Below, piece by piece: positions 6,101-61,236 of a stretch of 64,000 nt of DNA. The notes beneath the pieces are model-generated. The model saw nothing but the letters and a program-made list of their open reading frames with translations, made no database searches and had not been told where the DNA came from. Made by a program: the position numbers and the translations under genes. The stretch's first letter is position 1. Every line of letters starts with the position of its first letter. The DNA lies in assembly GCA_013076295.1 (NCBI GenBank), contig RQOL01000861.1:2356001-2420000 (forward strand), read 5' to 3'. Source of the DNA: Sanderia malayensis. Its lineage: Eukaryota; Cnidaria; Scyphozoa; Semaeostomeae; Pelagiidae.

Positions 6101-9100
6101 CATTATTCACTCTTGTAATTAATACATTCTGACAGAAAACTAATACATTCTCAAGTGATACCTCGATTTCCATTGGAAAGTTTGCTCTGCTTAATAAATA
6201 TGTGCTAAGATGAATTAGGGAAAGACAACTGTTCTAAAAGCATTTTATCATATCGAAATTACATAGATGGATGTATGGATGTATGGATGGAATCATTTCA
6301 ATGGTCATGTCCTCTTGAGCAACCACATTTTACAACACACGTCTCTATTTTCAACCGTCCCTATCAACAAGTAGAGTGAAATACTATTCAGTTACACTTG
6401 TAATAAACTGCTACCAATACTCCACGCCTACTTTGACCAAAAATCACGTGACATAGATAATGGCATTTCCCCCACTTAACAGCCGATGACTTGGCGCGGA
6501 GGTGTTGGATAACTTTAAATTGTACTTCTTCCTGAGTGTCAAATGTAAATGATTTTATAGCGTCTGACAGATTAAATATAGTACACGATTCTTCGACCAA
6601 AGCAAGAACAATGCATTGCACCGCCTTCCACATCGTTCCCAAGATGCATTTCAGGAATCAAAGCAAAAAAACTACAGCTTCCATACAAATATAATTTAAT
6701 AATGTTCAGGAAATACATAAAGAAATTAAATTACATAGTGCCACAACGTTTCCCGGAGAATGAGGGGATAGTAGCTATGTACACAGTGTAGCAAGTCGGC
6801 AATTGGTTTGTTTACAATAAAAATCCCAGCTAACAATGATGATAATAACAATAAAGTAATACTAATTAATATAGAACTATATTCAACCAATGAGGCGGTC
6901 GTTGTAATGCTTTTATGACAGTAGTTTATGGTGATGGTGATAATGATGATGATGATTAAAATGTGGATTCCTGACGGATACATCACTTGTTGACCAACAG
7001 AATTTGCAATAATCTGGATATGTTGGTCTGAAACATTCCATGTTTGCAAACTTATCTGCAGGATGAAGGTCTACGTTGCATTGTTTGAGCAAATGATATT
7101 CCATGATATTATTTGCGTCAAATGACAATAAAGAAGACGGAGATGATGATGATGATGATGACGAGATTGGTGCAGTTGTTGGTGAATTGTGTAAATTATA
7201 ATCAGTAGCAGGATTTCGTCTGTGCATTGGATTATGGTTGTCATGTTGATGAAAGTGACGTTGTTGTGGCATTGTATTAACTTTCATTGAATGTGCTTCA
7301 CAGTCCATCTCTTCCTTCTGCCTTTTGTATTTATAGCGATGGTTTTGAAACCAGATTTTTACTTGCGTTGCACTTAAATTGATCATACGTCCTAGCTGTT
7401 CTCGTTCCGGGGCAGATAAATATCTTTGATGCATAAATCGTCTTTCCAGTTCATAAGTTTGTGCTTTTGTGAATAATATTCTTCTTCTTCGCTTCTTTAA
7501 AGTTGTTGACGATGAAAGTGAAGCATCTTTGGAAATCACAATTGATGAATTGTCTTTTGCATCACCATTGTTATCATCATCTTCGCCTTCGGCTTTACCA
7601 TCTGGCGTGTACGCCAAATGCGAGCGACAATCGTCGAAAGATTCTTCACTCTCTTTGCCATTCTCTTTACAAACTATAACAAAATGAGTAACAATTAAAG
7701 ACAACGGTTTATTCGTGGAATATTTTTTGAGCTCATGCGAGATGATTACGTTAACAGAGAAGAATCCCTGCCCAATTTGGTTGGCGGTAAGAATACAACA
7801 AACGAACGGCAAGAATAAGTAACACGGAAACGGTACTGTAACAATATTGCACGCCTCGCCGACTATAGAGTACAGGGGAATATTGTTAGCTATCGAAATG
7901 AAACTTATCACTCATGGACTCATTCTTGAGTTGACAGTGAATTGTAAGTTATGAACTTGATAATTTGCGACATCTAATCGTCTAAAGTAAGTATCGCACA
8001 CATTGTTGACTGTTTAAGAAGGGCGATCTATGACGTAATAAGCATATAATGCAAAGACCAGTATTTCCGTTGTATTTTCCAGTGGACTTTATTGAATTGA
8101 GGACATGCTTCAAATGTCAATAGAAATGTAGTTTATTTGCAATAAATGGCACCAAAACTAAATACCAAGGAATTCTTAACATGCGAAAAAAGTGAGATAA
8201 AAAGTCATAACTACCTTTGCTAAGCGATATTGGCGATAAAACATTTGTGTTATTAGCATATTTGGGCAAGTGTTGTTCGGATTGGTGATAACATTCATGA
8301 TAATTCTGTTGGCTTCCATCGATTTTCATGTTTCTCATTGCTTTTGTCGAATTACGTTCACAAGCCAAGTCGGAGATTGAATCTTTATGAACAATTCCAA
8401 GAATATCTTCCATAAAAAATGATTTCAATTTCTTTCGATTGCTCCTTATTTCTGTATTCATTTTGCCAGCAATGTGAAATGAAAACTCAAGCAACGTTGA
8501 ATGTGACTTGGTGGATAGGACAATTACCTTTCAAACGATTTCACGTTCAACTGCAAAAGTGCCAGGCCGCGATCTTGCTTTTGATGTGAATAAAATCCAA
8601 AGAAAACCAGTTGATGCAACTTGATTGAATACGAAAAATGATGAAAAGCATCAAACAAAACGAGTATCGCAGTGAGATGCGACCAGCATGTGTTGAGCAG
8701 TTCGATTGAAGTTTGATCAGAGATGAGCTTGCAAGCAAGCAAACTGATATCGTTGACTTGCGAAATAGAGTGACGCGTTGATGGAGACGTCAATCATAAA
8801 ATGAATTAAACAATGCAGAACTTCTTAACACCCACTTCTATTTTGATTGACACTAGCCAGCTATGAGTGACAACAAGAAACTCCATTCACACTTTGACAA
8901 TCCTCACAATAACGTTACATATGTATCATGCATAAAATGACGAATGCGTTCCACCAAGCAGCCAACAACAGACAAACACTTGTGCTAAGCTGAATATATT
9001 GTATCTCTTTTCAGATTTCAATTGGATTCACTCAATTTTGTCTATTATTATTCTTGTAAGATAGATGTGCGTGTGGCGCGCATGTCTACCAGTGTCTGCA

Positions 9101-21771: not shown

Positions 21772-22212
21772 CAGGGTTGCCAGTTTGGATTTTTCAAATC
21801 CAAATTCCAGAAATCTGGATTTTTAAGAACTCGTTTGGATTTGAAAAAATCATTTGGATTTGACCGAAAATCTGGATTAATTTTGGATTTATCAGAGAAT
21901 TTCCATATTTCGAAGATTTTATTTAAAAGCAAGCTCAATAACAAAAGAAATTTCACAACTGTATGTAATGAAAATTGAGAATCCAAAAGCAATTTCAATA
22001 TCCAAACACATTTGACAATGAAAACCTGTTGCTTTTGTTCTCCGGAAGTATCTTGGGAGTATCATGACTGAGAAATATTTCCTTTGACAATGAGCCTCGT
22101 TTTCATTATAGAAGATTCTATTGTTTTAAAGCCTCGTTTTGAAATTTGGATTAATCTGGATTTTTGTCACGCATGATTTGGATTTAAGAAATTTTTCGAC
22201 CTGGCAACCCTG
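21772..22212. mobile_element. hAT-type non-autonomous element (MITE)
   Basis: Perfect 12-bp terminal inverted repeats, CAGGGTTGCCAG and CTGGCAACCCTG, flanked by an exact 8-bp direct duplication TTTATCAG (21764-21771 and 22213-22220). The 8-bp duplication and CAGGG ends are hallmarks of hAT transposons. The 441-bp interior has no transposase and is dense in TGGATTT/AAATCCA motifs. It ends 36 bp before the galactosyltransferase start codon, so it probably supplies or interrupts that gene's promoter or 5' UTR. Confidence 0.92.
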
Positions 22213-22248
22213 TTTATCAGTGCTGGCTGCGTGTCATCATTTGAAATC

Positions 22249-23353
22249 ATGAATTTAAGTTTACATAAAAGTATATTAATTGCATTTTGCATAATTGCTT
22301 CTTGTTCAATCATATTTTTAACAATGGAGATGTGCAAAGGCCAAAGAACTTCAAACTTCTTTAAAGCTCACCAATCTGACAGCATATCGACGACGAAGAA
22401 AGGCCGCCTAGGCCATGTTAAATTACCAAAGAAAAACACGGCAATTTTGTCAAAATTAAATGAAAAAGATAAGCTTATAGAAATCGCTACAGATCCATTA
22501 CCATTATCTGCTACATGCAAAAACGCAGTATATTTAGCAATAATTGTTTCTTCATCTCCAACAAGTTATAAGAGACGGAATGCTATTCGAGCAACTTGGG
22601 CTAAAGTTGACAAAACTAATAGCATTGCTCGTATAGTATTTTTGATTGGAAAAACACATGATAAACGCTCTAATTCTTTGATTGAAACTGAAATGGAAGA
22701 GTTTGGAGATGTTGTTCTTGGAGGATTTCATGAAGATTATCGAAATTTAACTTATAAAACAAGACTTGGATTGAAATGGGCATACTATTATTGCCACGCA
22801 AATTACATTCTCAAAACAGATGATGATGTGTTTATCAATCTGTTTCCACTAATTAAATGGTTGAAAAAACAAAACGATGCTAAATTCTATGCTGGTTGGT
22901 GCAACTTTAATTCACCAGTTGTGAGGGATCCAAATAACAAATGGTAATTCACAAATTTTTAAATTAATTTGTTAATTAAACTTATGATTATATTGTGTAT
23001 TCTAATATTTGTTTCTCTTTTTAAGGTATATATCTCCTGATGATTATTCAGGGTCAACATATCCTGGCTACTGTCTTGGTGGTGGCTATATAATGTCAAG
23101 TGATGTACTAAGAAGAATAATAAAAATATCTTATGGAAGGAAATTATTTCCAATGGAAGATCTTTACGTTGGCTTTATGATAAATGAACTGAACGATGTG
23201 ACTCCAACAGATAATAAGATTGGTTTTAATCTAATATTTAGTGGCATTCAGGGTTGCTCTTACAATCAATTGTATTTGGCACATCCTGTTAACCCAGATG
23301 ATCAATTAAAAATGCTATTAGAATCATTGATAGTTCAGAAAACTTGTTCATGA
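22249..23353 (+). CDS. Beta-1,3-galactosyltransferase family (GT31)
   Basis: Golgi type II glycosyltransferase transferring galactose (or GlcNAc) in beta-1,3 linkage. Two exons (22249-22943 and 23026-23353) joined in frame: 340 aa. A short cytoplasmic tail (MNLSLHK) precedes a signal anchor (SILIAFCIIASCSIIFL). GT31 motifs in order: RRNAIRATWAK, DVVLGGFHEDYRNLTYKT, the DxD motif KTDDDVFIN, YPGYCLGGGYIMS and EDLYVGF. The acceptor specificity cannot be deduced. A poly(A) signal lies at 23537-23542. Confidence 0.93.
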
Positions 23354-24470: not shown

Positions 24471-27400
24471 ATGAAGACTTGTATACTTATTCATGCAATT
24501 ATTCTTTTCAACATTATTTGGTCTTCGCAAGGTATATCTACTGGTATTTCAATTCCTTTTTACTAGTGAAAATAAAAATAATGAGATGAATACAACGTAT
24601 GTATGTGTGTTGCTGGATTTTTTATTCACAGGCTATTTGAATGAATTTAAGCTTCGTGGAGGAGAGAGCGGTACAATGTCTTGTACCAAGAATGAAAATA
24701 TTAAAATCATCTATGCTAATTTTGGAGATGCACTAACGGACGGATGTGTTAATAAGAATAAACAAGATGATACGAAGAAAGTGATTGATTTTTGTGAAAA
24801 TAAAATCAACTGTTCGTTGAGTGCATCAAATGAAACATACAAAAATCCATGCGGAGGAACAAACAATACCTTGACAGTTCATTATCATTGCTTGGGTTGG
24901 TATCTTACTCCTACACTTTAATTTATTGTTGACTGTTGCTTTCAGGTCAGTCAGATAAAATAAATGTATTTGTATTTAATTGTAGAAAAGTCAAGATATG
25001 GAATGAATGTGTTTTACGTTCTTGGTGAAGGATGCTCATCTCCATATGTCTATCCGAGTTGCCCCCTTTCCCGTTGTGAATTTGAAATCAGTGGAACAAA
25101 AATCACACGGGCATTAAGGGGTCTTAATGTAATAACAATTGATGGAAGTACATGGAATGTTCTTCAAACCTTTAATTTCGATACATTTGCAAGTAGCACA
25201 AGTTTTCTTGCATGGATGAGAGGCTTGAGTGACGGGACATTCCTATTGCTATGTGGATGGGATGAATCAACTCATGGTATGACAACGGACGCATGGACTG
25301 AGCTGGTATGTTTCAAACTTTATTCATTTCTCACATACTTCCTTAATTTATGTGGCAATATCATTATGATAACAAATTTTTATTATTCGCTTCGCTTGTG
25401 GCTTGAAGGAAAAACTTGGATATAAAAGTCCGTCAAAAGAGTTTAGGTCATCACATGCATTAATTGGATACAAAGGAAATTCTAAAATTCACATCAGCAG
25501 ATCAAAATCAACTCCAGCATTTTCACTCCCTGCGGTCGTATCTTTGAGTATTGGTATGTAGCCATACTAAATTGGTCATTCAGCCTTGTTGCTATCAATG
25601 TATTGTTGTTAAAGTATTCTTAAATGTGTGCAAATTGATTTTTCCAAGTGAAAGCACCAGATGATATTGAAATTCACCTTTCTGGCAATGACTATGTTGA
25701 AGTTTATTGGAAGCATACCAATTTGAAAGAAGTAACAGTCTTCATTACCCATAAAACAGCAACAGACACTAATGCATTAAGCAAGACTGTTTTTGCAGAT
25801 GCATATTTGAATAAAACAGTGATTGGCCCACTTGAAAAAAATGCAATTAGCGAGATAATTGTGGCGTATGGAAATTCAAGTGAAACTCATTTTTACTTGA
25901 CAAGTTCATCATTTGTTATTGCTGGTTATGTTCAATCTTCATCTACCATTCGTAAGTTATTTTATCATATCAAATTATTTGGTAAGATTTATTCGTTGTG
26001 TGCATTCTTTGATGTATTTTTCAATTTGTCAGAATGTCAGCCATCAGTTTTCAAACTTATGCTTGAAACAAACCCTTCCTCGGTAAGTATTCATATTTTG
26101 CGCAGCACACATAAACTATAGGTTTTTAAAATGTTCGAATGTGTTCAAATGTATATACAATTAAAGTTATACATGACTTGGTTTGACAATTTTCATTCTT
26201 TTCCGTGCAGACAAAGTTTGATTATGCATCTCTTTATTGGGAAAACGAGGGAAAGTTAAATGAATTAGGAGGAATGGCTGTCGCATTTGAAGGAGATGAT
26301 ATCAAAACAAGCGAATATTCAAACTCAAAATTTAAAAGATGGTGTGTGGGCATGAAAATTCAAAATACGGCAACATATAGATTTACAGAAATCGCGTCAC
26401 CAGATCATACAAAGTCGTTTCTTGAGCTCATGAAAAACAAAGCTACCACAAATGCACATAGAAGCAAATGGCTTCGTTTAATGCCAGAAAGTAAGCGTTA
26501 AAACTTTGGAACTACTTGTTAACGTTACACAGATGACTTACCTTTTTATTGTTATCAAATGTTTTTGTTATCTTACAGGTAATTGGCAGTCGCTTCAACC
26601 GCATTGCAATTTGGAGGGTTTTAATAAGTATTCACCAACATATTCTTACCTCAGGAAAACTAGGTTTGGTATTTTGGGAAATAATGAAAAAGACTGTAGA
26701 ACTCCAGATTCTGTACTTGGATTTGGACCCACACAATTCCATGCAACACACGGAGTTATAATTCATCTCAAGGCTCACGGTTATATTCTTGGTAAAACAT
26801 TTTATTAGAAAAAAACACTCAATTGGCCAGTTCAATTAATGAACGATTAAAAATAACAAATATTTAACTTTAATTTGTTTAGGTTCCTCTACTATTAATG
26901 GCAATTGGGGAAGTTGGAGCCAATGGTCAACAATCTGTTCTGTTTCATGTGGGACTGGAAATTTGATTCGAAATAGATCATGTGACAATCCAGCTCCAAT
27001 TCGGGGTTTGCCATGTCAAGGAGCATCAAATGATACGAAATCATGTCATACCGATTGTCCACGTAAGAATAATTTCAAAATGTCTACTACCCGATGATTT
27101 TTCAAACAAAACAGTCTTACTATATTAACCCCATGCTGCACAATTTAATAGAGTAATAATAATAGTTTTCCTTTCAATCGAAGCTGCCCCGCAGAATCCA
27201 CGTGGAGACAGAGGTTCTCAAAGGCTCACACTTAAATGGGACGCAATACCGCTCACTGAGATTGTCAGTCCGATAAAATATTATGTTGTGCGTCTGTGGA
27301 AAGAAGCAGAAGAATTGGTAGAAACAATAAATATTGGACCCACACTGACTTCAACGACACAATACAGTTTAGAAATTTATACAAAATATTGTTTCGTTGT

Positions 27401-30400
27401 CCGCGTGTTATTGCAGAGTGGAGTAAAGGGACCTAATTCCACATCCTATTGCCTTTACACGAAGGAATCAAGTAAATAGCTTTATTATTTTTTCTTGTAA
27501 CTGCAATTGATAACAATTAAAAAATGTTGCTAAATTTCTTCTTTTTGTTATTTTTAGCTCCAATTGCCCCTCCAATGAATTTTGTTGGGTTCAATACCAG
27601 TGCATGGTGTTTGAATTTTACATGGACTCAAATACCAGTGCATTTAGCAAGAGGAATCATCATAGGATACAATGTATACATGTCAACATCAAGTAATGGT
27701 CCAAATACAAAACACATCACGATTGCAACAAACAGAACCCAAATTTGCAATTTGAAGCCTTATACATTGTATTATGCAAAGATTGAAGGCTTCACTAAAG
27801 TTGGACCAGGCGACCCAAATGTTGCCATGTCTTCACCAATTCAAATGAGATCAGATGAGCATGGTATGTGAAGTACATGCATTTTCATTAATCATTAATC
27901 ATTAATCATTAATCATTAATCATTAATCATTAATCATTAATCATTAATCATTAATCATTAATCATTAATCATTAATCATTAATCATTAATCATTAATCAT
28001 TAATCATTAATCATTAATCATTAATCATTAATCATTCATTAATCAATTACAGACTTATCTTTTATATTTTTTTAATCGACAGTTCCAGTTCAAGCCCCAA
28101 ATATCGCATCAGTTCATAACATCACATCAACCTCCTTGAATATTAAATGGACCAAACTAAATGAGATATATTGGGATGGAATACCACAAGGATATATAAT
28201 ATATAGCAAATTGAAGTCTTCAGCAAAGACAACAGTTGTCGTTGATATCAAATCATGGCTAACAATAAGTTATGCTATGCATGGTTTAAAGAAGTATTCA
28301 GAATACAGTGTATGGATGACAGCTTATACATCTAAAGGAACTGGAATAAATAGCACGGTCGTTTCAGGATGGACTGATGAAGATGGTAATAAACATGTAG
28401 TTCTTATTTTTTAAATTTGCTGCCATATATTCTTTTAACTTCTCGGATGAAATTCTTATTAATTTTAGTTCCAATTCGTGGACCTGAACTTGTGTGGGCA
28501 CAGAACAGTAGCTCATCTTCCTTGTCAGTCCACTGGCAAAGCCTTGAGCCAAAATACAGACAAGGCATTCTACTTGGTTATCGGGTATACTGTACAAATA
28601 TGAAAAGTCTAAGAACAACGTATATTGATGTCAATGCAAATGCAATTTCAGCAACGATAAATCATTTACAACCATTTACAAATCATAGTGTAAGAATTTC
28701 CGCATATAACATCAAAGGATTAGGATCAAACAGCAGCATAGCCTATGCGTTTACTGATGAATCTGGTAATGCACATTCTACTCAAATAGTATTCATGCAG
28801 TTGCTAATGTTTGCTGCTAAAAGATACGTTGTTTGATGTATGTAATTATTATTCGTTTACAGTTCCTTTAAGGGCTCCAAGTAACTTCCATGGCTATAAC
28901 TTATCTTCAAGCTCAATTTTTCTGAGATGGTCAGAAGTTCAAAAAGTCTACCTGCAAGGAATTCTCCTGGGATTTACAATTTTATGCAGAGAAACGTCCA
29001 CTCTTCATGCATCATGGGACGCAGTTGAAGTTAACGACACCAAGTTGAGCACAACGATTGCAAATCTTTCAGCCTACACAAATTTCACGTTTAAAATTGC
29101 CGCATTTACTTCGAAAGGAAATGGAAACTTAAGCTCAGAAATTATTGTCATAACTGAAGAAGATGGTATGAACATCAAGTGATCTTATTAAGCTTCGTTC
29201 AACTGTAATTTTTATTGGTGTATTTTCGTGGGATTGCTTAAAGTCAGCTTGCTTGCTGTAACAACTTTTACTCATAAAATTTTAGCGCCAAGGAAGCCAC
29301 CGGAAAAAGTAAAAGTAGCCACGAATTCATCATCAACATGTTTGGTCACGTGGCATGCTCCTTCGTCGGGCATGGTAGGAGTTTTACGTGGATATAAAGT
29401 ATCATATGAGCCAATGTATAAAGAGGATGACTTCAAAAATCATCTTCTTGTCAGAAAAAGTCGAAAGAAAAGGACCATAATATCAACCCCGTTGCAGATG
29501 AATATGTAAGTTGGTAATAATGTTGAAACAGCTGATTGGTTAAATTAATGGTCACCGAGTTAATCAATTCATTTGATTACTTTTTCAGCATCCAAATTAC
29601 TGTCGGTCCTAATGTCCACTCACTACTCTTAGAAGATTTACATGGAAATACCAATTATAGCATCAAGGTATTGGCATTTACTATCCTTGATGGAATTTCG
29701 AGTGAAACGTTCTATATCACTACACCAGAATCAGGTAAAATACGGGCATGCTTATATTTCTCTATGCACACGTACGTACTGTATTTGACTATACGTTGGT
29801 TACCTTCTAGTGCCTGGTATGTCTCCTGTTAATGTTTCAACTGTTGCAACGTTATATCATTCCGTCATGGTAACTTGGAAACATGTCCCACCAGCTTATG
29901 CACATGGTTTTATCACTGGCTATATTGTCTTCTACCAACAAGGCAATCATAGTGAGGTAACTGAGCACAATGAAACACAAATTGCCGAAAGACCTTACCT
30001 TGAGATTACTCATCTTGCAACATTTGAGTGGCATTCATTTCAAGTTGCGGCATTAACATCAGCAGGTGTTGGTACCAAAAGCGAAGTAGTCTACGAGAGA
30101 ACAAGAGAATGGTGTAAGTTATTCTCATTAAAATTCTATATTACCTATCCACCTAAAATGACTTTCAAACAGCTCTTGATGAGGTAGTGAATATTCATTT
30201 TTGTAACACTGTTTTTATTTCTAATTCAGATCCAATCAAAGCTCCAGAAAAATTGAGTGCAACAAGTTATTATTCCCCATTTCAAATCAATATAACTTGG
30301 CAGCCATTGTTTTACGAGTATTGGAAAGGGCACCCTTTTAAGTATAAGCTCACAATTCGCACAACTGCAGTTGGTGGTAAAAATTTAAAGCAATCAGAAG

Positions 30401-32977
30401 TAAAGAAATTTCTATTTGTTATTCCTGCTGCCCAAACACGTTTCGATTTCAAGCAAGCAGAGCCATTTACCAAATATTCAATAGAGATACAAGCTCAAAC
30501 AGTAGTGGGTTCTGGTCCTTCTGCTTCAATATTTGCAGGTAAATTATGCTGCACGGATTTTCTCATTGAAGCTTGGGACACACTGGTGAGGTATTTTACC
30601 TGTTAGTTGATAATTTCACTGTATTTTGTTTCATTTCTTTCAGATAGTTGTAATGTTGATCGCTACGAGTTTTTTACATCATGGGTAATCAACGAACCGT
30701 TTGTACAGCCTGGAAACTCAAGCTCAGTGCCTGTTGGCGTAGTTCCACAAATTTTACAATCTGCACTTCTTGAGTGTCGCGGGCATTGTGCAACTCTGAA
30801 CCACACATTGATGATAAATTATCAAATTGATGGTGTAAACGAGAAAGCCAGGAAATCAGGTTACAAGGAAATGATCTACAAGAAGAACAATCTAACGGAT
30901 TTCATATTTCCAGTGATAAAAAAGAGCTTTGATGTTGAACAATTTCAATTTATTAAAATAATGTCAGTTCCTGGAGCAGCTTTTATAAGAAAAAATCCAA
31001 GTAGAACAATAATTGGGAAAAGTGTTGGAATAGCAGCAACGACAATTTTCGGCGAAATTATCATGTTCGCTTTGCTTTGCTGGCTTTTTGGAATTTTGAT
31101 TTGGCTTCTTGTAAGTACTAAGTATTCTTTATACTCAATTTTCTTGCTAGTCGTATTTGCGACTTCACATTGTTTTAAGGTTATTTGATTTTTAACAAAG
31201 GAAAATTTGAGCGATGCTGGTACGTTTGAAAGTAGTTCACTTGAAGGAATGTTTGAAGGATTCTATTGGGCATTTACAACAGCCACAACAGTGGGGTAAT
31301 TGACAAATCCTCACTTATTCTTATATTATTTGGCATAATTATTTCCAGAACAAGTTTATATAACTACGCACTTTTCTCTTAAAGTTATGGTGATAAATAT
31401 CCCTCTTCAGTTCCGGGAAGATTATTAATGGTAATTTGGGCATACGTTGGTCTTGTCCTTGTTGTCTTATTGGCTGGTGCTTTGACAAATGTACTCATTG
31501 CAGAAGAAGAGGTTATTCCAGCTAGTCTTGGAGGAACCAAAAGCCAGCCTGTCTCAGGGGTAAGGCTAGCTTTTCCAATTACTTCCACAAGACAAGTCAA
31601 CGAAACTCAAAATGAAAATGATTTTGTTGCTTTTTTAGATTGGAGCCGTGGCTGAATCTTGGGAATATTTCGCTAGCATTAAAACAGGCTTTCATATACG
31701 TAAGTTTGCTAAACTGCAGCATATTAAAAAAGCTGAAGTTAATTATGATATAAATAAGATAAGCTAACAATTTATAAGAACGCACACTTGCCATGACCGA
31801 ATTTTCTTTGCGTAGAAAAAACATTTAGCGAAGCCTCAATGTTGATCGATGCCATATCAAAGAATGAAATTGAGTTTGGAATACTGGACCAGTACATCGC
31901 ATCGGCACATAAATTTAAAATGGAAGCAAGTGAAGTCTCAGTTAAAAGAATTCTAAAGATGCAAGCTTCTATCGGGTTATACACAACAGGACATGCAAGA
32001 AAGTTACGCCATTGCTTAGAAAAATATGTGGAAGATAATTCACAATATGCTACAAATCTGCTATCTAAAAGTATCGCGGTGAATAACCTTGCAACCAATT
32101 AAATAATAAATAATAAGACTTTAATTGAAATAATGATCTATTTAATCATGTGATAAATCGTGTGTTGTGATTTAATCGTGTGTATGTTATTGATTTATAA
32201 ATTGTAATTATATTTATCAACAGGAAACAACGAAAAAACTAGCAAATCAATCATCAGAAGAACATTCAATGTCAGCATCATTAATTGAAGATGACAAACC
32301 AGAGTTTTACAGTTGGGAATCACAAATTTTGCAAAGATATCTCAAACTATCGTGGATTTTGTTTGGAACATTCTTCAGTCTTGGATGCATTTATCAATTA
32401 ATGAAATTCATCAGAATGAAGAAGAGAAGGTCTTTCAATATTGACCCATCTGCACACAATTCTCAAGGTTTGTCACCAATAAAGAACATGTGCTGCTTAC
32501 AAGCTTACAAGAAGCATTCTATTGCCATTAAATAGATGATGTGTATAAAACATCATGTTATATAACTGTGATCATATGTTCTTTTAATATATAGCAAACA
32601 AGTATGAAGACAGGACTGAAGAAAGAAGTGCGAAAGATGACAGTTTGGTGTTAGCATCATTAATAAGAGACGATCAATGGAGAAGGCATTACGCTGATCT
32701 ACAAGCGTTGCATTGTGCTAAAGGAAACCAAAATTTCATCCAACGGCTGCGCACAAGAATGATGAAAGAAAGGAGAATAGCTTCAATGAATATGCCAAGT
32801 TCATTAGAGATAGCGACGGACGAATTTCTCACCGACTTTCGCAATCGCATTGAAAATCGATTTAAAGAGCTTGAAACTAAACAACTGAGACAACTGCTGC
32901 AGAAGAAAGAAGAAATGATGAAAAAATATGGCAGATATAAATATATAAAAGAAACTGAACTTATGGAACCATTTTAA
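24471..32977 (+). CDS. Lectin/ILEI/TSP1/FN3 receptor fused to a GluR0-like K+ channel
   Basis: Twenty-five exons, summed length 5,979 nt, in frame throughout: 1,992 aa. Residues 1-20 signal peptide; 21-108 SUEL lectin (ANFGDALTDGC, NPCGGTNNTLTVHYHC); 109-263 ILEI/FAM3-like domain (RGLNVITIDG, LSDGTFLLL, SSHALIGYKG); 264-364 FN3-like; 365-545 unclassified (TRFGILGNNEKDC); 546-605 TSP1 (WGSWSQWSTICSVSCGTG); 606-1430 eight FN3 domains, seven encoded by single phase-1 exons. From 1431 comes a glutamate-receptor-like S1 lobe (NEPFV, DFIFPVIKKSFD), helix M1 (IAATTIFGEIIMFALLCWLF), the pore TTATTVGYGD, helix M2/M3 (MVIWAYVGLVLVVLLAG), an S2 lobe (GAVAESWEYF, FGILDQY), M4 (SWILFGTFFSLGCIYQL) and a 130-aa basic, coiled-coil cytoplasmic tail. 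Predicted surface receptor, probably a K+-selective tetramer; the ligand is unknown. Confidence 0.9.
27886..28047. repeat. (CATTAAT)n heptamer microsatellite in receptor-channel intron
   Basis: About 21-23 near-perfect tandem copies of the 7-mer CATTAAT fill most of the intron between the second and third FN3 exons. The near-perfect copies suggest recent expansion and length polymorphism. Confidence 0.95.
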
Positions 32978-33254: not shown

Positions 33255-34862
33255 TTATGAGTGCGAGTATTTGACCTCATATTCATTAACATCACTGTCT
33301 TCATCAATTTCGCTTCCTGATAGTTCATCTTCATTTGCTAACAGATGCTTTCTTCCCTCGTTAACTTTTCCATTTGATGAGTACGAACTTTGATTGTGTG
33401 TCTTACCTTCACCTTTCGGGCATGCGCAACGCGACGAAGCATTGTAGATGACATGTATCAATAGGTAAAGAACAGCAAATAGAAGCACAAGAAACATGAC
33501 AATAATTCCTGTCAGCATTTCTTTTGATTGGACAACTGTCTTGGCAATTCGCCAATACCATCTCTCTTGTATCGCCATAATATTTGATAACATGTACCCT
33601 GAACCATTGTGGGGCTTTGCTTGCAACTTAATAGCGGCACAAAGAAGTTGATAAACATCAACATTGTTTATCATATCAAGACGGATTGATTTACGAAAAG
33701 CAGGTCCTTTCGCAATGAATATTGAATGTGTTGCTCTTATAGCTGATGAATAGCCCATAATAGCCTTGCGAATATCATTTGGATCTTTTATTCTTCTGGC
33801 GTGAACTTGCCATTCTTCATCTGCCACCAATATTAATGGCGTCGTTCTATTTTCGTGCTTGAAGTGAAAGTGTTCTGGCAAATCTTCTTTCTTGTATACT
33901 TCCATGTGTTGATTTGATCCATTCAGTTTCGCCACTAATATGTTCAAATCTTTCATTGCTTTAGGGACAATCATTGTAATCGGTCCATCATCAACTACAT
34001 CAAAGGAAGACTGAAGTTTTTCGTCAAGGTAATCTTCAAGATAAATCTTCTTTTCTGTGTTAATATTCATAGCTCCTGCATCACTTGTTAAAACCAAATT
34101 GATTTTATCGAAAAGTTTGGCATCTTTCAATCCTTGAACAAGTTTTGCTACAACATTATCAATATTTTTTAAAGTCATTTTCATTTCGCTTGATTCTGTT
34201 CCATGTAACAAAGCTGTCTTGAATGGCTCTTCAAAATAGGAACCAATGAAATTCGGTCCATGTTCCATTTCAATCCATTCCAATATTTTCCGCACCCGAT
34301 CTTCCATTGAAAAAACTGGTTTCTTTATATTTGAACTCAAAGTTATTTCTTCGAAAGGATCGGACAGCTTTGTGCCATTTTGTTCCAAGGGGCATGAATA
34401 CGATATCCTTGTCTCTGAGTATTTCACATTGTGTCCAGGCCAGTAGCATAATGCACTTTTTGTTCCATTTCTTTTCTCGTTTGACACCCAAATGGGTTCA
34501 CCCTCATTCCACCATCTTTCCTCTTGATTAGACACATCAAATTGGTCCCCGTTTGATAAATCTCTCATTTTATTCGCCAACATGCCATGTTTTTCAGGAT
34601 ATAAGCCAGTAACAATTGTTTGTAGTGAAGGCAATGTTTCAGATTGAAATGCAGTGCGCTTTTCATTCACCAATACTCCATCTGCTGCTAATTTTCTGAT
34701 ATTGGGCAACTCGTTTTCATAGATACTCTTCCAGCGAAGTCCACTAAAAGCGAGCAGTATCACAGACCTTTCTTCATTTGGATCTTTTGTGTATTCCAAA
34801 ACAAAACAGTCGCTCCCCAAGACGAAAAGAACAAGAAGTAAACCAGCCTGATGAAATGCCAT
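33255..34862 (-). CDS. ENPP4/5-like ectoenzyme homologue lacking metal ligands (pseudoenzyme)
   Basis: Type I membrane protein of the nucleotide pyrophosphatase/phosphodiesterase family, single exon. I start at ATG 34862 because it opens a good signal peptide (MAFHQAGLLLVLFVLG), giving 535 aa; an in-frame ATG at 34919 would add 19 polar residues. ENPP4/5 landmarks are clear: VTGLYPEKHGMLANKM, WWNEGEPIWVSN, IFIAKGPAF and a C-terminal membrane helix (IIVMFLVLLFAVLYLLIHVIY). The active site is broken: the first Asp (FDGFR in relatives) is Ser in AFSGLR; EEPD is EEPF; the SDHGM motif is SDAGAM; GDHGYDN is IMGYSSA. Only the nucleophile Thr (SETLPS) and one Asp remain. No frame damage is present, so it is likely a functional non-catalytic protein. 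Confidence 0.88.
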   Translation of the reverse strand: MAFHQAGLLLVLFVLGSDCFVLEYTKDPNEERSVILLAFSGLRWKSIYENELPNIRKLAADGVLVNEKRTAFQSETLPSLQTIVTGLYPEKHGMLANKMRDLSNGDQFDVSNQEERWWNEGEPIWVSNEKRNGTKSALCYWPGHNVKYSETRISYSCPLEQNGTKLSDPFEEITLSSNIKKPVFSMEDRVRKILEWIEMEHGPNFIGSYFEEPFKTALLHGTESSEMKMTLKNIDNVVAKLVQGLKDAKLFDKINLVLTSDAGAMNINTEKKIYLEDYLDEKLQSSFDVVDDGPITMIVPKAMKDLNILVAKLNGSNQHMEVYKKEDLPEHFHFKHENRTTPLILVADEEWQVHARRIKDPNDIRKAIMGYSSAIRATHSIFIAKGPAFRKSIRLDMINNVDVYQLLCAAIKLQAKPHNGSGYMLSNIMAIQERWYWRIAKTVVQSKEMLTGIIVMFLVLLFAVLYLLIHVIYNASSRCACPKGEGKTHNQSSYSSNGKVNEGRKHLLANEDELSGSEIDEDSDVNEYEVKYSHS

Positions 34863-34919
34863 TCTCTTGCAATTAAATATGCTCTTTTTATAATCTTCTT
34901 TCGAATATCCTGTTATCAT

Positions 34920-35665: not shown

Positions 35666-36832
35666 TTACTTCCAAATGCAGATTAAAGATGGATCTGTTT
35701 CCGTAAGCAGGTCCAGTTCTTGATACGAAATTGATTCACCAATGGCATAATTTCTGCAAATTATTTCATCACAACTGTAGCTTCCATTCAACCATTTAGC
35801 AAGATTTCTCAACTTTTGAGAAGAAGGATCTGATATTAATATAGGATATTTGTCAAGTCTGTGAATGAATCCTTTAATCAGACCATATTGAACCAACAAC
35901 CTTGGATCTATTTTGAGTATTGCCATGTCATGTCTTATACACAAATCTTTCACTGTTATTCCAGGACCCATTGCACAGTATAGCATGAACACATCTTTAA
36001 AATTGGGTAAATGTGAAATGTCAGCAGCAACCCATTTGATGCATTCCTTTTGCATTTCATTGTCCTTTGACAATTTGTTGATTTCTGGTGTCAGTGCATA
36101 CTTGTTTGAATGCAAAAATACTGGGATTAGGGTGATAACACCATAATATAATAATGTTTGGATTGCAGATCTGACTAAATTCAGATCCATATCTGCTACT
36201 GCTGCTATTTTTTGGACATGATTACAACCATTAATGTGCTGCAGTATTTGCTGAGCTGTTAAGTCCCAATGTGATGCAAAAATCTCCTTCTTATCCCATA
36301 GGAAAACAGGCACATGATAATCTAATACAACAGGTGGATGAACAAGACCTTGAACTATCTTCAAAAATATTGTATTTGATCCATTTATCTTGATATTACA
36401 TTCACCTTTTCTATTTAATCCATGCAATATATCATTTAATATGTTTGGGATATTTTGTTTCGTTTCCTCTTGGGATATATACCCAGTTTCTTGCTCAAGT
36501 GTTATCAAGTAAGCTGAAAGCTTTTTAACAACTGCTTCATACTTATTTGTAAAACTATCTTCATCAAGTATAAAGCAAACATTGAATAGCAATGCATTTC
36601 TTGAGTATTTTGCATTCTCGATTCCAACTGAGCAACCAATGAATTTGTAATCAAAGGCTCTTAAAGTTAAAAGTCTCTGTTGGAGTTGAGGTTTTGTAAT
36701 AACATACGGTGCAATGCTATCAAATTGTCCTTTACTTATAAATTCTTCTGGCGATTGATAAGCTATTTTAGGACCAGCAATTGGATCGAATTCACAAAAC
36801 AAAATACAACGAATCTCATACCTTTCCTCCAT
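35666..36832 (-). CDS. NPRL2: GATOR1 subunit NPRL2
   Basis: Subunit of GATOR1, the GTPase-activating complex that inhibits mTORC1 when amino acids are scarce. Single exon, 388 aa (about 380 in vertebrates). It shows the longin-type start CILFCEFDPIAGPKIAYQ and the conserved ITKPQLQQRLLTL, FIGCSVGIEN, YSRNALLFNVCF, VPVFLWDKKE, WDLTAQQILQHI, LNLVRSAIQTLLYYGVITL, and the C-terminus SYQELDLLTETDPSLICIWK. Being intronless among multi-exon neighbours hints at retroposition or intron loss. It shares a 110-bp head-to-head promoter with POP4. Confidence 0.96.
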   Translation of the reverse strand: MEERYEIRCILFCEFDPIAGPKIAYQSPEEFISKGQFDSIAPYVITKPQLQQRLLTLRAFDYKFIGCSVGIENAKYSRNALLFNVCFILDEDSFTNKYEAVVKKLSAYLITLEQETGYISQEETKQNIPNILNDILHGLNRKGECNIKINGSNTIFLKIVQGLVHPPVVLDYHVPVFLWDKKEIFASHWDLTAQQILQHINGCNHVQKIAAVADMDLNLVRSAIQTLLYYGVITLIPVFLHSNKYALTPEINKLSKDNEMQKECIKWVAADISHLPNFKDVFMLYCAMGPGITVKDLCIRHDMAILKIDPRLLVQYGLIKGFIHRLDKYPILISDPSSQKLRNLAKWLNGSYSCDEIICRNYAIGESISYQELDLLTETDPSLICIWK

Positions 36833-36942
36833 TTTGCATGTCGTTAACTAACGTATTTGAGATTTGAGGTTCACGCCCATTTAAGACATCCATCAAAAAC
36901 ATACAAAATCGATATTAAAAGGTGGGCGGCACAAGCACAACA
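36833..36942. promoter_or_regulatory. 110-bp bidirectional NPRL2/POP4 promoter
   Basis: The divergent start codons of two housekeeping genes are only 110 bp apart, so both 5' UTRs and the core promoter must fit here. No TATA box is clear. Confidence 0.75.
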
Positions 36943-38382: not shown

Positions 38383-39959
38383 TTAACCACTATTATTTGT
38401 ACATCCTCCTTCAATGTTTTCATTTTCTTCATCAATAAATGTCAATGTTTTATCTTTTTTCGTTTCTTTTGCATCCTCATTAGTATGATCATCACTTTTT
38501 ATATTATTTAATTGCATTTCATCATTTGTTGTTATGTCGTCATTTCTTATTATTTCTGTTCTCGTTCTTTGAGAATATAGTTGCAATGTTTCCCTTCTTG
38601 TTGACCTGGCTTCTATGATATCATCTATTCATTGAGTAATGGGTAACATTAGATGTCATGACGTTCATGATTTACATTCTAAAGCTATTTGTTAAGCGAT
38701 TTCCTGCCGCGTCATCATTTAACTCAAACTTTGAGCAATTTGGTCGATCTCTGCACACAGCCTTGATAAAACATCAAAAAGAGTAGAGAAAAACAGGTAA
38801 ACACACTCACCGAGATTTGTGTGTGGCTTTTTGATTAAGTTGAATGATATCTTGTTAATAAGAAGTCGTAGCAAATGCCAAAATCCATCACTGTATTGCT
38901 TGCGTAGCAGTGGGTATAACCATGGTGTAATAACACTTTGAAAAGATGCAAGGCGAGCTGATATGAAATCCAGATGTTGTGAAAAACTCATTCCATTTGC
39001 TGCTAAGCACATGCGGATCTAGAAACAAATGATATCTCTATAAACAGTAATGTCAAGATAACACAAGAGTTAGCACCTTTATCCATCTGACAATAGAGTG
39101 AACATGACCTGACACGCACCAAGAAAGGTAGCCAACATATTGCGAACACTGCACTTGTAAATATGCTAATCTTGAGAAGCTTCTTTTCTTGTTTTGGAGT
39201 GAGTTTCTTTTGTAAATAATAACTGCTATTATTTGGTTGTTGAACAGTTGCTTGTCTCTTTACCTCTCTTTTAGACATCTGCAAGGATGGTCTGATTGCT
39301 TTGATTAATAGCTGCACTTGTATACACACCCCTATATTTAATAGCATTATCAACACAGTCAATGCACTTATTAATGCAACATGAATGCTTAGCAGTACCA
39401 TACTTCTCGTCTCGTTATAATCCATATTAAATAAGCAATAACTATTTGGAAACTGAAGTACATTTTCTCCAACTCCAATCAATGGTAAGATACTTAAAAT
39501 AGCTATGAATATAGCAATAAGAGAAAACGTAGTTGCAATTTTATGCTTACGGCTTATTTCATAAGCAATGTGTTCTTTGTAGCAGAATGGATATGTCATT
39601 GCAAGAAAGCGGTCCAAACTTATCATACAGATTAGTATTATTGACATGTACTTGAAAAATACGATAGCTGTTGCATGGTAATTGCATGCAATTGCACCAC
39701 CAATATATCTTCCAGCAAGATGGCTCAATACAGCTTGACTATACGTCAGAGGTAAACTAAGAAGGTCAACGATGCACAGAAAAAGTATGAGAATATTTGG
39801 CATGCTTTTACGACGTTTTAGAATTTTCGTTATCAGAATCAGGACAAGCAAATTTCCAATTATTCCAATTAGTTGTGCAATTAACAAAGTTATTCCAGAA
39901 ACAAATCTCAATGAGAATGATAATTGTTCATAGCTCCATTGTCTTTTCAAATATTCCAT
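38383..39959 (-). CDS. Prostanoid-receptor-like class A GPCR
   Basis: Three exons (39959-39120, 39018-38811, 38624-38383) join in frame to 429 aa. Seven membrane helices are evident: TM1 LIGIIGNLLVLILI, TM2 ILFLCIVDLLSLP, TM3 ending CMISLDRFLAMTYPF (DRF for DRY), TM6 CWLPFL. Similarity to prostaglandin E receptors is seen in the TM4/ECL2 region (ILPLIGVGENVLQFPNSYCLF) and TM7 (SARLASFQSVITPWLYPLLRK). There the Arg equivalent to the prostanoid carboxylate-binding residue is kept and PWLYPLLRK replaces the usual NPxxY. The long Asp/Asn/Thr-rich C-terminus is encoded by exon 3. It is divergent from SNAP-25, with starts ~1.4 kb apart. Membership of the prostanoid branch is inference. Confidence 0.75.
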
Positions 39960-41370
39960 GTCAATCAACTGCTACTCCAGCTCAATAAAATAAGTGTTTA
40001 AACAACGTTTTTTTGTAAAATTACCAGTTTGATTCCAAGTAGCTAATGCACAATATATGCCAATACATCTTGAGCAAACATTCAATAGATATGCAGGCAA
40101 AAGTAAGAAAGAAAATAAGACTTTCTTATTTCATAGTGACTCCGTGCATCGAGTTTTATTGTTTTAGAAATTTCGTGTATTCTCCATGAAATAGCCAAGA
40201 TAGGGAAGAGAGAAGAAAATCTGGCATTGACAATGACTTGCAACAGCGAAACAGCGTCAGATCGAAAGGTGAACAGGTGGCATTATCTTCCGCGCATTTT
40301 CTAACTATTTACTTCCAAACAAACGTATGCAGCAAAACCATTGAGGAGGTGCCTTAGAGCTCTTAGGTGAATCAAAGGAATACGCAAACAAATAAAGACT
40401 CTGGCGTGGAGAAAGATAATCACCAACTCTTTTGGAACATTTCTTGTAACAATTCAGTTGGATCAATATATTTACAACAATAAGTTCAGTGCTTCAACTT
40501 GTGATTCTTAAATGAAAATTTAAACTTTATTGTTAAAAACGTTTTGCCATAAATATTGAAGCACTTTTGTCTTTGATGTTTTAAAACTTGTAAACATTTG
40601 TATATACGAAATATTTATTTATTTCAACCTTATATCTTATATTTTATATATTTATAACTTTATATTTTGGCGATATTTGTCACATCAATTATTATGCCTC
40701 AATTCACTTTTACTCTCTCAGGTTACGAAATATTTCAAGCAACACTGTGAAATACTTCACTACACGGAAGATGAAAACTTTTCATGATCAAATTTCTCAA
40801 CTTCATGTGACGTCATAAGATTAGGAATGTTTATGTCATGGCGTTTTAGCGGCGGGGCGGCGACGGTGAAGCGATTTTAAATTTCATTGTGGTGTGAAGG
40901 GTGAAACTGTCGGTTCTAATTTCGCATCGGTAGTCATAAATATTTTGGCTTCAACAGCTTCTGACACAATAAATTTTTTTATCGATATCTTCGGAGAGGC
41001 TTGCAAAAAGAGTAAATAAGGTGAAATATGTATAATAATGCGAATTAGTTACCTGAATTTTTATTCATTAATGTGATCTTCATCTTGTCTGACCAATTCA
41101 TCTTGTCGTATATGTAGGCCCAGTTCTTGAAGCTGCAAAAGAAATTAACCAATTAAACCAGAATTATTTTGTGATCAATGTTTTTTAATATTCTTAAATA
41201 TATAACTTAGCTTTAGTTATTTATATGATTAGTGCGTGCATGAAAGTTTAAATGTGGAAATTGATGGGTTTAGCAAATTCATCTTGGGTTTAGAATGGGA
41301 AGCAACCAGGAACAAACTAAGAACGTCAAAATATTTCTTCTCAGTTGAACAGTATTTGAATAGATGCAAA
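39960..41370. promoter_or_regulatory. Divergent upstream region between GPCR and SNAP-25 genes
   Basis: It contains a perfect CRE, TGACGTCA, at 40808-40815, 556 bp upstream of the SNAP-25 ATG, then a GC-rich patch at ~40845-40870. On the minus strand 41140-41065 there is an exon-like stretch after a TTTTGCAG acceptor, reading LQELGLHIRQDELVRQDED and stopping soon after. No partner exon was found. Confidence 0.5.
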
Positions 41371-53233: not shown

Positions 53234-55498
53234 ATGATGCTGAGAAGATCTTTGCTGAAATTTAGATTTGTCACATTTCGTGCCATCCATGTAAACACGC
53301 GTTTTTTATCAACAATTAACAAGGAAGTCAAAATTCATTCCGTGTTGGGGAAAGATAATGTTGTTAAAAGCGCAATATTTCAAGACATTCCAGACAATGT
53401 ATCTGTTTATGATCATGTCACGTCAAACTTCTCAAACATGAAGGATAAAATCGCATTCGTAAGTAAACCAGACAGACCTACCACCGTACATAATAACTTT
53501 TATTAAATTATTTAACTAAAATATTCTCTTGTCGTGTCAGAACGCTCAAACAATTATTAATTTCAGATTGATGGAATATCAGGTGAAAAATTTTCCTATG
53601 GGAATCTGGAGTCAGAGTCGCGAAAGTTTGGTTCATTTATTTCCAAAAATGATTTTAACATGCATGACACTTTGGTCATATATTCACCAAATGATGTGAA
53701 ATATGCTGCAATTGTACTTGGTACTTTGGCAATTGGAGGCTCTGTTTCTACTGCCAATCCGCAGTATACAAAATTGGAATTAGTTAATCAATTGTTGGAT
53801 TCCAAATCAAAAATGATTGTCACAACATCTGCACTGCTAGAAACAGCCAAATCTGCAGCTAAAGAAACTGGAATCAAACAAATAATAAATATTGATGAAG
53901 GGTGCGATAATGTTCATGATGGAGTATTCACTTGGTCTGATATCATTTCTGATGATGGAAATGCTTTTGAAAATCGTTCAACACAAATTAATGCAAAAGA
54001 AACTTGTGCATTGTTGCCATATTCAAGTGGCACCACAGGTAAACCAAAAGGTGTTGTTTTAACACATCATAATCTTGTCGCAAATGGACTTCAATTGGAT
54101 TCGTTTTCGGAAACGCTTCCCAGAAATATTTCTCTCGGATTGTTGCCATTTTTCCACATCTATGGTTTATCAATTATTCTTCTGAGTGGATTGAGAAATG
54201 GTGAAACTATTGTCACACTTCCAAAATTTGAGCCACAATCTTTCCTGCAAGCTATTCAGGATCATAAGGTATTTTTCTCATTTTAAACCTATGTAATACG
54301 CTATTGTTTTTCTTCAGAAATTTGCAATCAATGTCACTGAACACTTTTTTACACATTAATAGATTGATTATTTATATTTGGTACCACCTTTGGTCTTATT
54401 CCTGATCAAAGCCCCAGAAGTTGCTAATTATGACATCAGCAGTATAAGACATGTGACTTCAGGTGCAGCACCTTTTGGTACTGACCTTTGGAAAAGTTTC
54501 ACTGACAAATTTTCCTCTCAAATAAAAGTCATACAAGGTCAGTATAAGAATTGTTTGCTTGTGATAAAAGGCGTGTCAAAGGACTATCTTTAGTTATTTA
54601 ATGGGATGTTTATTTCAATTAAAAGGTTATGGTTTATCAGAGGTTAGCCCACTTGCAACCTTGACTCCTGGTGATGATGTCACGGTTGGCTCAGTTGGAA
54701 AAATAGTGCCAAATTCTGAAATGAAGGTGATGAATTATCTTTGAATCCTTCATTCATATGGGCAATGGCAAGATATTAATATTTAAATAAATAATTTATG
54801 AACTTCTATTTGGTTGTAAGGTTGTGGACTCAGTTAATGGTAAAAATCTAGGTCCAAATTCAGTTGGAGAAATAGCAATAAAAGGTCCCCATGTCATGAA
54901 AGGTATACTCTTAATAATTGAATCAATAATCTTATCATGATAAATGATGTAGAATTTGTATGCACTTTTGGATTGAAATATTTTCCCCTTCAGGTTATTT
55001 GAATAATCCTGAAGCCACAGATGAATGCCTTACAAAAGATGGATGGTTTCTTTCTGGCGACCTTGGTTATTATGACGATGGTCATAATTTTTATATTGTT
55101 GATCGATCAAAAGAACTCATTAAGTACAAAGGAATGCAGGTATGTTTTGAAAGCATCAACTATCTTGAAGTGGAATCTATTGTAAAGATAATGATTCTAA
55201 TTTACACTCTAAATGTTGAACTCAGGTTGCACCAGCAGAATTAGAAGATTTTCTTATGTCACATGAAAAAATACGCGATGCAGCAGTGGTAGGGATACCA
55301 GACAAAGAAGCAGGAGAATTGCCAAAAGCATTTGTGGTCACAGATGGAAATATAACTGAGGAAGAGGTGGTAAAATATGTTGAAACATCTCTTGCTCCCT
55401 TCAAACGTTTAAGGGGTGGTGTAGAATTCGTTGATTCAATTCCAAAATCAACAAGTGGAAAGATATTACGAAGAATATTGCGTGAAAAGCACATTTGA
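53234..55498 (+). CDS. 4-coumarate-CoA-ligase-like acyl-CoA synthetase
   Basis: ANL-superfamily adenylating enzyme that activates a carboxylic acid as acyl-AMP and then acyl-CoA. Seven exons (53234-53458, 53567-54268, 54363-54537, 54626-54726, 54821-54902, 54994-55139, 55226-55498) give 567 aa in frame. Signature motifs are the phosphate loop [32 protein letters not shown], hinge [17 protein letters not shown] and the catalytic Lys in STSGKILRR. The N-terminal ~30 residues ([18 protein letters not shown]) are basic and amphipathic, resembling a mitochondrial presequence. The C-terminus EKHI is not a peroxisomal PTS1. The substrate is unknown; insect luciferase is in the same branch. A poly(A) signal lies at 55664-55669. 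Confidence 0.93.
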
Positions 55499-61094: not shown

Positions 61095-61236
61095 ATTTTA
61101 CAGATATTTGAAGGCAAGAGTAATAGTAAAAAACCCTGTTTTCAAACCTTGCCGGGTTGATCTTTGTGATGAAGTCGAGTTTTCGTGCTTAATTATTCCT
61201 CACTAACAACTATACTAACACAAGGCCATAAAAGTT

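Follow-up and report, generated by a model that had tools for sequence, protein, structure and literature searches.

The DNA analysed here (the window) comprises 64,000 nucleotides of contig RQOL01000861.1 of the scyphozoan Sanderia malayensis, positions 2,356,001 to 2,420,000, and carries on its forward strand, at 24471..32977 in window numbering, a gene for a protein of 1,992 amino acids (aa) in which an adhesion-type ectodomain precedes a channel core resembling that of the prokaryotic glutamate receptor GluR0. On balance, we regard it as probable that this is one gene, of which the genome contains a second, collinear copy, and that its product unites a lectin/ILEI/TSP1/FN3 ectodomain with a GluR0-type core bearing a potassium filter and likely serves as a contact- or ligand-gated potassium channel. 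Evidence for the union of an adhesion-type ectodomain and a GluR0-like potassium-filter channel in a single gene comes from a public gene model, the collinear second gene, seven cnidarian relatives, the kinship of the core to GluR0 in profile and tree comparisons, and two predicted structures with a bilobed fold. As read from the sequences, the protein has a signal-like start, adhesion modules, a core in the order S1-M1-pore-M2-S2-M4 (S1 and S2 being the two parts of a bilobed domain and M1, M2 and M4 membrane helices) and the filter TTVGYGD, and its seven relatives differ in their ectodomains. The core is of the known GluR0 type; for the adhesion channel as a whole, no described counterpart was found.

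The gene forms an open chain of 25 exons from the ATG at 24471 to the stop codon ending at 32977, which amounts to 5,979 nt with zero internal stops and GT-AG borders at 24 of 24 introns:

24471..24531, + strand, exon 1, start codon and signal peptide (MKTCILIHAIILFNIIWSSQ, hydropathy 1.57)
24632-24895, 24986-25305, 25409-25553, 25649-25951, 26033-26082, 26211-26490, + strand, exons 2-7, GT-AG
26579-26791, 26883-27062, 27184-27471, 27558-27863, 28083-28385, 28469-28765, + strand, exons 8-13, GT-AG
28863-29165, 29286-29505, 29589-29734, 29811-30113, 30230-30538, 30644-31110, + strand, exons 14-19, GT-AG
31201-31295, 31385-31559, 31639-31699, 31816-32078, 32224-32467, 32595-32977, + strand, exons 20-25, GT-AG

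An earlier note, made from the letters of the window alone, had proposed these 25 exons, their summed length and their unbroken frame, all of which were recovered when the GT-AG chain was rebuilt with a splice program and corrected at three places. The program was given the start and end from that note and some seed stretches picked by eye; the exon list was not supplied. Its output of 27 segments (1,962 aa) was near-identical to the 25-exon chain, deviating by one segment of zero length, one donor site placed 30 nt downstream (25981 vs 25951) and one FN3 exon cut in two. These three deviations were corrected by hand on the basis of intron length and the pattern of one exon per FN3 module, and at both disputed joins the corrected chain is matched by the public model P0001. 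In addition, a tblastn search with the spliced protein recovered exons 2-25 in order in the genome, which was searched over 184,004,477 bases in 918 contigs (the window being G000:C815:2356001-2420000).

From residue 22 onward, P0001 equals the 25-exon model except for an N-terminal fusion and 33 absent residues of exon 10; its channel part is 100% identical to that of the window protein. It does not contain the signal-peptide exon 1 and shows seven fn3 stretches, versus eight in the 25-exon model. The fusion joins the receptor to an upstream galactosyltransferase gene (window 22177-23353, + strand; Galactosyl_T, 96.2 bits in its first open reading frame, ORF). A fused galactosyltransferase-receptor was rejected because the galactosyltransferase ORF ends in its own stop at 23353 and P0001 leaves out the signal-peptide exon along with 33 exon-10 residues. 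The 25-exon model is the better of the two.

The following parts were assigned in the ectodomain:

24676..24891, + strand, SUEL galactose/rhamnose-lectin domain, residues 36-107 (Pfam PF02140, 42.9 bits)
25117..25480, + strand, ILEI/FAM3-like domain in two exons, residues 153-239 (Pfam PF15711, 54.7 bits)
25649..26791, + strand, exons 5-8, residues 264-546, no recognised domain
26912..27055, + strand, thrombospondin type 1 repeat (TSP1), residues 556-603 (Pfam PF00090, 33.8 bits)
27184..30538, + strand, eight FN3 modules (Pfam fn3, 8 stretches, 2.2e-66)

The signal-like start is visible by hydropathy, and the profiles scoring over the Pfam cut-off in the window protein are SUEL, ILEI, TSP1, fn3 (8 stretches), Ion_trans_2 and Ion_trans. 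Hence, the signal peptide, SUEL, ILEI, TSP1 and eight FN3 modules described earlier all stand, while an FN3-like module claimed for exon 5 (residues 264-365) has to be dropped, as an fn3 match is absent there in Pfam. The stretch thereafter, already left unclassified in the earlier note, stays unrecognised, residues 365-546 giving no Pfam match and no PDB match below E 0.79. Given that the second gene, on contig C809, has a counterpart of residues 384-476 (E 2.3e-4), residues 365-546 may represent an undescribed module; the corresponding extracellular segment, 26033-26791, contains the stretches WQSLQPHCNLEGFN and RFGILGNNEKDC. The amino-terminal domain (ATD) of animal ionotropic glutamate receptors (iGluRs) is absent among the Pfam matches, with SUEL, ILEI, TSP1 and fn3 in its place. 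Each FN3 module occupies one exon, apart from the sixth, which occupies two, and all outer module borders are in phase 1. Exons 8-19 start in phase 1 throughout, exon 16 within the sixth FN3 excepted, and the channel core with S1 also begins at a phase-1 exon border. Sequons of the N-glycosylation type number 27 in the 1,410-aa ectodomain (mean 14.9 and maximum 26 in 500 shuffles) and 0 in the 143-aa tail. By eye, intron 11 holds a tandem array of the 7-base unit ATTAATC at about 27888-28036.

In the channel core, the parts are:

30644..31011, + strand, S1, first part of the bilobed domain, residues 1431-1553 (AlphaFold2, AF2, model; match to GluR0 core 1ii5)
31045..31101, + strand, M1 transmembrane helix, residues 1565-1583 (hydropathy 2.48)
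31276..31394, + strand, selectivity filter TTATTVGYGD, residues 1612-1621, interrupted by intron 31296-31384
31422..31478, + strand, M2 pore-lining helix, residues 1631-1649 (hydropathy 2.67)
31530..32078, + strand, S2, second part of the bilobed domain, residues 1667-1784 (hhalign to GluR0-type S2, E 1.3e-4)
32356..32412, + strand, M4 transmembrane helix, residues 1829-1847 (hydropathy 1.55; 1.84-2.57 in seven relatives)
32413..32977, + strand, tail, predicted cytoplasmic, with intron 32468-32594 inside it

This order, from S1 through the TTATTVGYGD pore to M4 and the tail, is that of the earlier note and agrees with hydropathy, filter sequence and AF2 model alike. In Pfam, the core matches Ion_trans_2 (47.7 bits) and Ion_trans (31 bits), the latter confined to the pore half (profile positions 108-218 of 241). 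Thus, the profile searches suggested earlier gave SUEL, ILEI, TSP1 and fn3 over their cut-offs, but Lig_chan on the core reached 21.2 bits against a cut-off of 30.8. M1, M2 and M4 are found by hydropathy in all eight family members (the window protein and its seven relatives), P0004 having one extra weak stretch in S1. As hydropathy gives only these three helices in the window protein, the S1-S4 voltage sensor is absent, and an ordinary voltage-gated potassium channel was rejected on this ground and because the tree places the core with GluR0-like rows. An invariant acid of S2, Asp1721 (31887-31889), is Asp in 8/8 members, and the tail contains a long AF2-predicted helix (core residues 481-547) with Phe513 invariant across the eight cores. 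The bilobed ligand domain, for which a structure prediction had been proposed as a check, is present in the two predicted models: both contain a bilobed fold of the periplasmic-binding-protein type, and the best structural match for both is 1ii5, the GluR0 core. The 50 matches listed by Foldseek are AMPA and NMDA receptors with TM-scores of 0.24-0.46 and root-mean-square deviations of 10-16 over the whole chain; since these scores are low, the clamshell is argued from the 1ii5 matches of the two models. S1 and S2 are accordingly modelled as a GluR0-like extracellular clamshell, and the tail is predicted to be intracellular.

The second gene lies at G000:C809:182300-197500 (+ strand; loci L029 and L030), with matches from 182306 to about 195800, and was read exon by exon, unspliced. 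It matches window residues 119-249 (6.5e-8), 384-476 (2.3e-4) and 554-604 (0.007) in this order, followed by an FN3 region matching exon by exon (best for residues 1227-1327, 55% identity, 4.2e-31), S1 with M1 (1.6e-13) and the pore and M4 region up to residue 1865 (8e-11). Pfam finds TSP1 (31.9 bits), Ion_trans_2 (31.8 bits) and fn3 in 8/8 pieces given (five over and three under the cut-off). An ILEI-like part hence stands ahead of TSP1, FN3 and a potassium-filter core here, too, whereas a search of the 3.3 kb upstream of the ILEI-like part revealed no SUEL part. The filter again reads TTVGYGD, and the intron interrupting it has the position and phase seen in the window gene (GG|T of Gly-Tyr). 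A protein search of the own genome gave at least 24 matches, namely 7 to the window gene, 4 to the second gene and 13 to M1-pore-M2 only (query residues 101-242); the family therefore has at least two members in this genome.

Used as a database query, the window protein's channel part retrieved its own gene plus a single relative, Actinia LOC116295209 (E 3.0e-22). With the corresponding part of that relative as query, 13 proteins were returned, seven of which (the Actinia protein included) span 95-100% of the query and six 10-44%. These seven relatives, all predicted proteins, come from four genera: Actinia (one), Nematostella (three), Oculina (one) and Acropora (two). In 7/7 of them, ectodomain modules and the same core occur within one predicted protein. 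The recognised modules are FN3 only in P0002, P0003 and P0006, FN3 and LamG in P0004, CUB and Ig in P0005, TSP1 and FN3 in P0007 (with a SEA match under the cut-off), and SEA and eleven FN3 in P0008 (with a PAN match just under it). Immediately before the core stands fn3 in seven of the eight members and Ig in one. Across the eight cores, 21 columns are invariant, including two S1 cysteines, six filter residues, one S2 acid and one tail phenylalanine; the filter is TTVGYGD in 7/8 members and TTLGYGD in P0006. No Pfam model matched the 220 N-terminal residues examined in the Actinia protein, and the first 200 or so residues of P0002 (Actinia) and P0003 (Nematostella LOC5519070), likewise without a Pfam match, look PA14-like by eye. 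Full-length relatives beyond cnidarians were not seen in searches covering proteins of limited length with common short words. The second collinear gene and the seven relatives, with adhesion modules ahead of the same core, answer the search for orthologues proposed earlier and suggest a family of likely contact- or ligand-gated potassium channels. Regarding the singular composition claimed for the window protein, it still holds that no described counterpart was found, but the composition is common to a cnidarian family and not to one gene.

The kinship to GluR0 was assessed by profiles and by a tree. The profile of the eight cores was scored against only the 7,997 candidates with the most common words, giving listed matches of 261-983 aa and a list with gaps, as family member P0005 (732 aa) is not on it. 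Among the matches listed, the top three are GluR0 types with SBP_bac_3, Lig_chan and a potassium pore (2.7e-32, 9.4e-27 and 2.4e-20), the best channel not of GluR0 type reaches 2.9e-14, and two further GluR0 types follow at 1.0e-13 and 4.0e-12. Against solved structures, the matches listed are potassium-type channels on or around the pore, with no glutamate receptors among them. In a profile-profile comparison, family cores and GluR0 types align over 205 columns (E 7.6e-32). Because the pore dominates such a score, S2 and S1 were also compared separately. The S2 score of 30.05 lies above 200/200 column shuffles (best 20.7), while the S1 score of 17.5 was equalled or exceeded by 2/200 shuffles and a crossed comparison of S2 to S1 gave 18.2. 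Hence, S2 resembles GluR0 by profile and S1 by fold only. A tree of 82 pore regions was built on 98 columns, with 36 of its 79 inner branches open. A branch with support 80 (SH-aLRT, a Shimodaira-Hasegawa-like approximate likelihood ratio test) has the family on one side, and another with support 90 groups it with three of the five GluR0-like rows. The 67 other potassium-type channels, drawn from the search with the Actinia channel part and from the profile search, lie separately, and two ordinary iGluR exons of the own genome are also placed elsewhere. The iGluR signature SYTANLAAF is kept in 3/9 residues at the homologous place in seven members and in 2/9 in one, compared to 8/9 in an ordinary iGluR exon of the own genome (L001, TYTANLAAF); chance matches elsewhere reach 4/9 and 5/9 (P0007, P0008). 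The reading as an ordinary iGluR whose filter was converted was rejected on the basis of SYTANLAAF and the tree, in which iGluRs are represented by only two rows, both of the own genome. The GluR0-like plan read earlier from S1 and S2 flanking M1-pore-M2 and the TTVGYGD-type filter is therefore upheld by profile and tree. The genome contains 31 Lig_chan matches, none of them in the window; L001, L003 and L006 look ordinary.

In glutamate receptors, an arginine of S1 holds the ligand carboxylate and an acid of S2 the amino group. The carboxylate-site arginine is aligned in 5/5 GluR0-like proteins versus 1/8 family members, the window protein having Lys, though the register of S1 is uncertain in this alignment. 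Neither Lys nor Arg occurs in P0004 and P0008 in the stretch linking the FP motif to the following strand. In contrast, the amino-group-site acid is aligned in 13/13 proteins (8 family members and 5 GluR0-like). As the arginine is unconserved while the acid is kept, ordinary glutamate sensing is unlikely, and, judged by these residues, a plain glutamate receptor is probably the wrong description of the core.

For the mode of action, we tentatively propose cnidarian adhesion-type potassium channels, in which a core of the GluR0 type, otherwise a bacterial one, minus the glutamate clamp, plus M4, tail and varied adhesion modules acquired by exon shuffling, would let contact with a glycan, the matrix or a cell directly switch potassium conductance with no second protein. 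Four subunits would form one pore as a tetramer. The FN3 chains would keep the outermost modules distant from the membrane, and the lectin, TSP1 and ILEI modules may bind glycans, matrix or another cell. Binding or tension would then move the clamshells, potassium conductance would open (or close) and the cell would be hyperpolarised. Glutamate sensing of the usual kind is improbable for the clamshell, which could bind another small amine-bearing ligand or have a coupling role. Exon borders in phase 1, found at the modules as well as at the core start, would permit ectodomain swaps by exon shuffling, a route that fits the ectodomain variety across the family. Some observations weigh against the proposed contact-switched potassium channel. 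According to the available excerpts of PMC3483616, AvGluR1 from the rotifer Adineta vaga passes sodium despite the same potassium-type filter, so the filter sequence is insufficient to infer selectivity. Moreover, sequons number 0 in S2 (126 aa), and one lies in the M1-pore linker, a part that is inside according to the topology.

Rather unlikely, in our estimate, is gating by a small dissolved molecule via the clamshell, with adhesion modules that only position the channel. The clamshell in both models, the amino-group-site acid being Asp in all eight members, and a core kept while ectodomains vary (CUB/Ig, LamG, TSP1, lectin), as for a place-finding part, all agree with it, but a carboxylate arginine in one of eight members versus all five GluR0-like proteins, together with two members without a basic residue there, makes a usual amino-acid ligand unlikely. 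The unconserved glutamate-clamping arginine and the deviating filter of P0006 (TTLGYGD vs TTVGYGD) would also suit a channel part that does not conduct and serves as an anchor or signalling tail. This is improbable, since loss of function would permit drift, whereas the filter is kept in 8/8 members, makes up 6 of the 21 invariant columns and recurs in the second gene. We give hardly any credence to two adjacent genes, an adhesion protein ending with exon 18 and a channel starting from exon 19, merged by prediction. While the gene model is a prediction and P0001 is already plainly wrong in one place, where it joins the receptor to the galactosyltransferase gene upstream, exon 19 has no ATG in its open frame before mid-S1, fn3 or Ig directly precedes the same core in 7/7 relatives from four genera, and in the second gene of the own genome the modules follow one another in the same order as far as the core and across it.

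Among known systems, Synechocystis GluR0 and the prokaryotic 'Group 1' channels have, in the available excerpts of PMC2950845, the same order of S1, M1, potassium filter, M2 and S2 as the window core. GluR0 provides the best outside profile matches among those listed, the tree neighbours and the best fold match to the family. It has two transmembrane helices in the excerpts of PMC12332018; M4, the tail and the adhesion modules are additions of the present family. AvGluR1 is described as having a eukaryotic iGluR architecture, and adhesion modules are unmentioned in the excerpts of PMC3483616 and PMC12332018.

Animal iGluRs (AMPA, kainate, NMDA, epsilon) share the extracellular clamshell, pore loop and M4 with the window protein, which differs from them by the reduced SYTANLAAF, the potassium filter and adhesion modules in place of the ATD. 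Extracellular chains of FN3, TSP1, SUEL lectin, SEA or Ig are known from adhesion G-protein-coupled receptors (GPCRs), PTPRQ-type receptor phosphatases and sidekick. In these, the membrane part leads to a seven-transmembrane bundle or a phosphatase, in contrast to the channel of the window protein, and relatives of the latter carry the database names of two such receptors (PTPRQ, sidekick). P0005-P0008 (Acropora, Nematostella) are named 'Cubilin', 'protein sidekick-1' or 'phosphatidylinositol phosphatase PTPRQ' despite their potassium-channel core and appear misnamed.

In the excerpts available, the combination of a glutamate-type domain and a potassium filter was stated in 2010 to be known from bacteria alone (PMC2950845), and a potassium-filter core was later reported in the rotifer protein AvGluR1 (PMC12332018). 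Among the open-licence literature matches listed, no description of such adhesion channels or of cnidarian GluR0-type proteins appears. A survey of metazoan glutamate receptors in eLife retained, according to its excerpts, only sequences keeping at least four SYTANLAAF residues (PMC6307864), a threshold at which the present family would have been dropped. Owing to this threshold and the database names PTPRQ, sidekick-1 and Cubilin, the family is easy to overlook.

Elsewhere in the window, a nucleotide pyrophosphatase/phosphodiesterase open frame lies just downstream of the receptor gene at 33255-34919 (- strand; Phosphodiest, 230.5 bits). Further matches are to NPR2 at 35666-36847 (- strand, 265.9 bits), a rhodopsin-type GPCR at 39003-39971 (- strand), an AMP-binding enzyme at 53561-54286 (+ strand) and a homeodomain at 6913-7911 (- strand); a 342-aa ORF at 60069-61097 (- strand) has no Pfam match.

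Stinging cells, feeding and self-recognition in cnidarians depend on contact and chemical sensing. If the proposed reading is true, one protein would link cell contact directly to membrane voltage in cnidarians. With three members in Nematostella, the family is experimentally tractable. Moreover, a GluR0-type potassium-filter core with M4 in several cnidarian genera bears on the origin of glutamate receptors from potassium channels.

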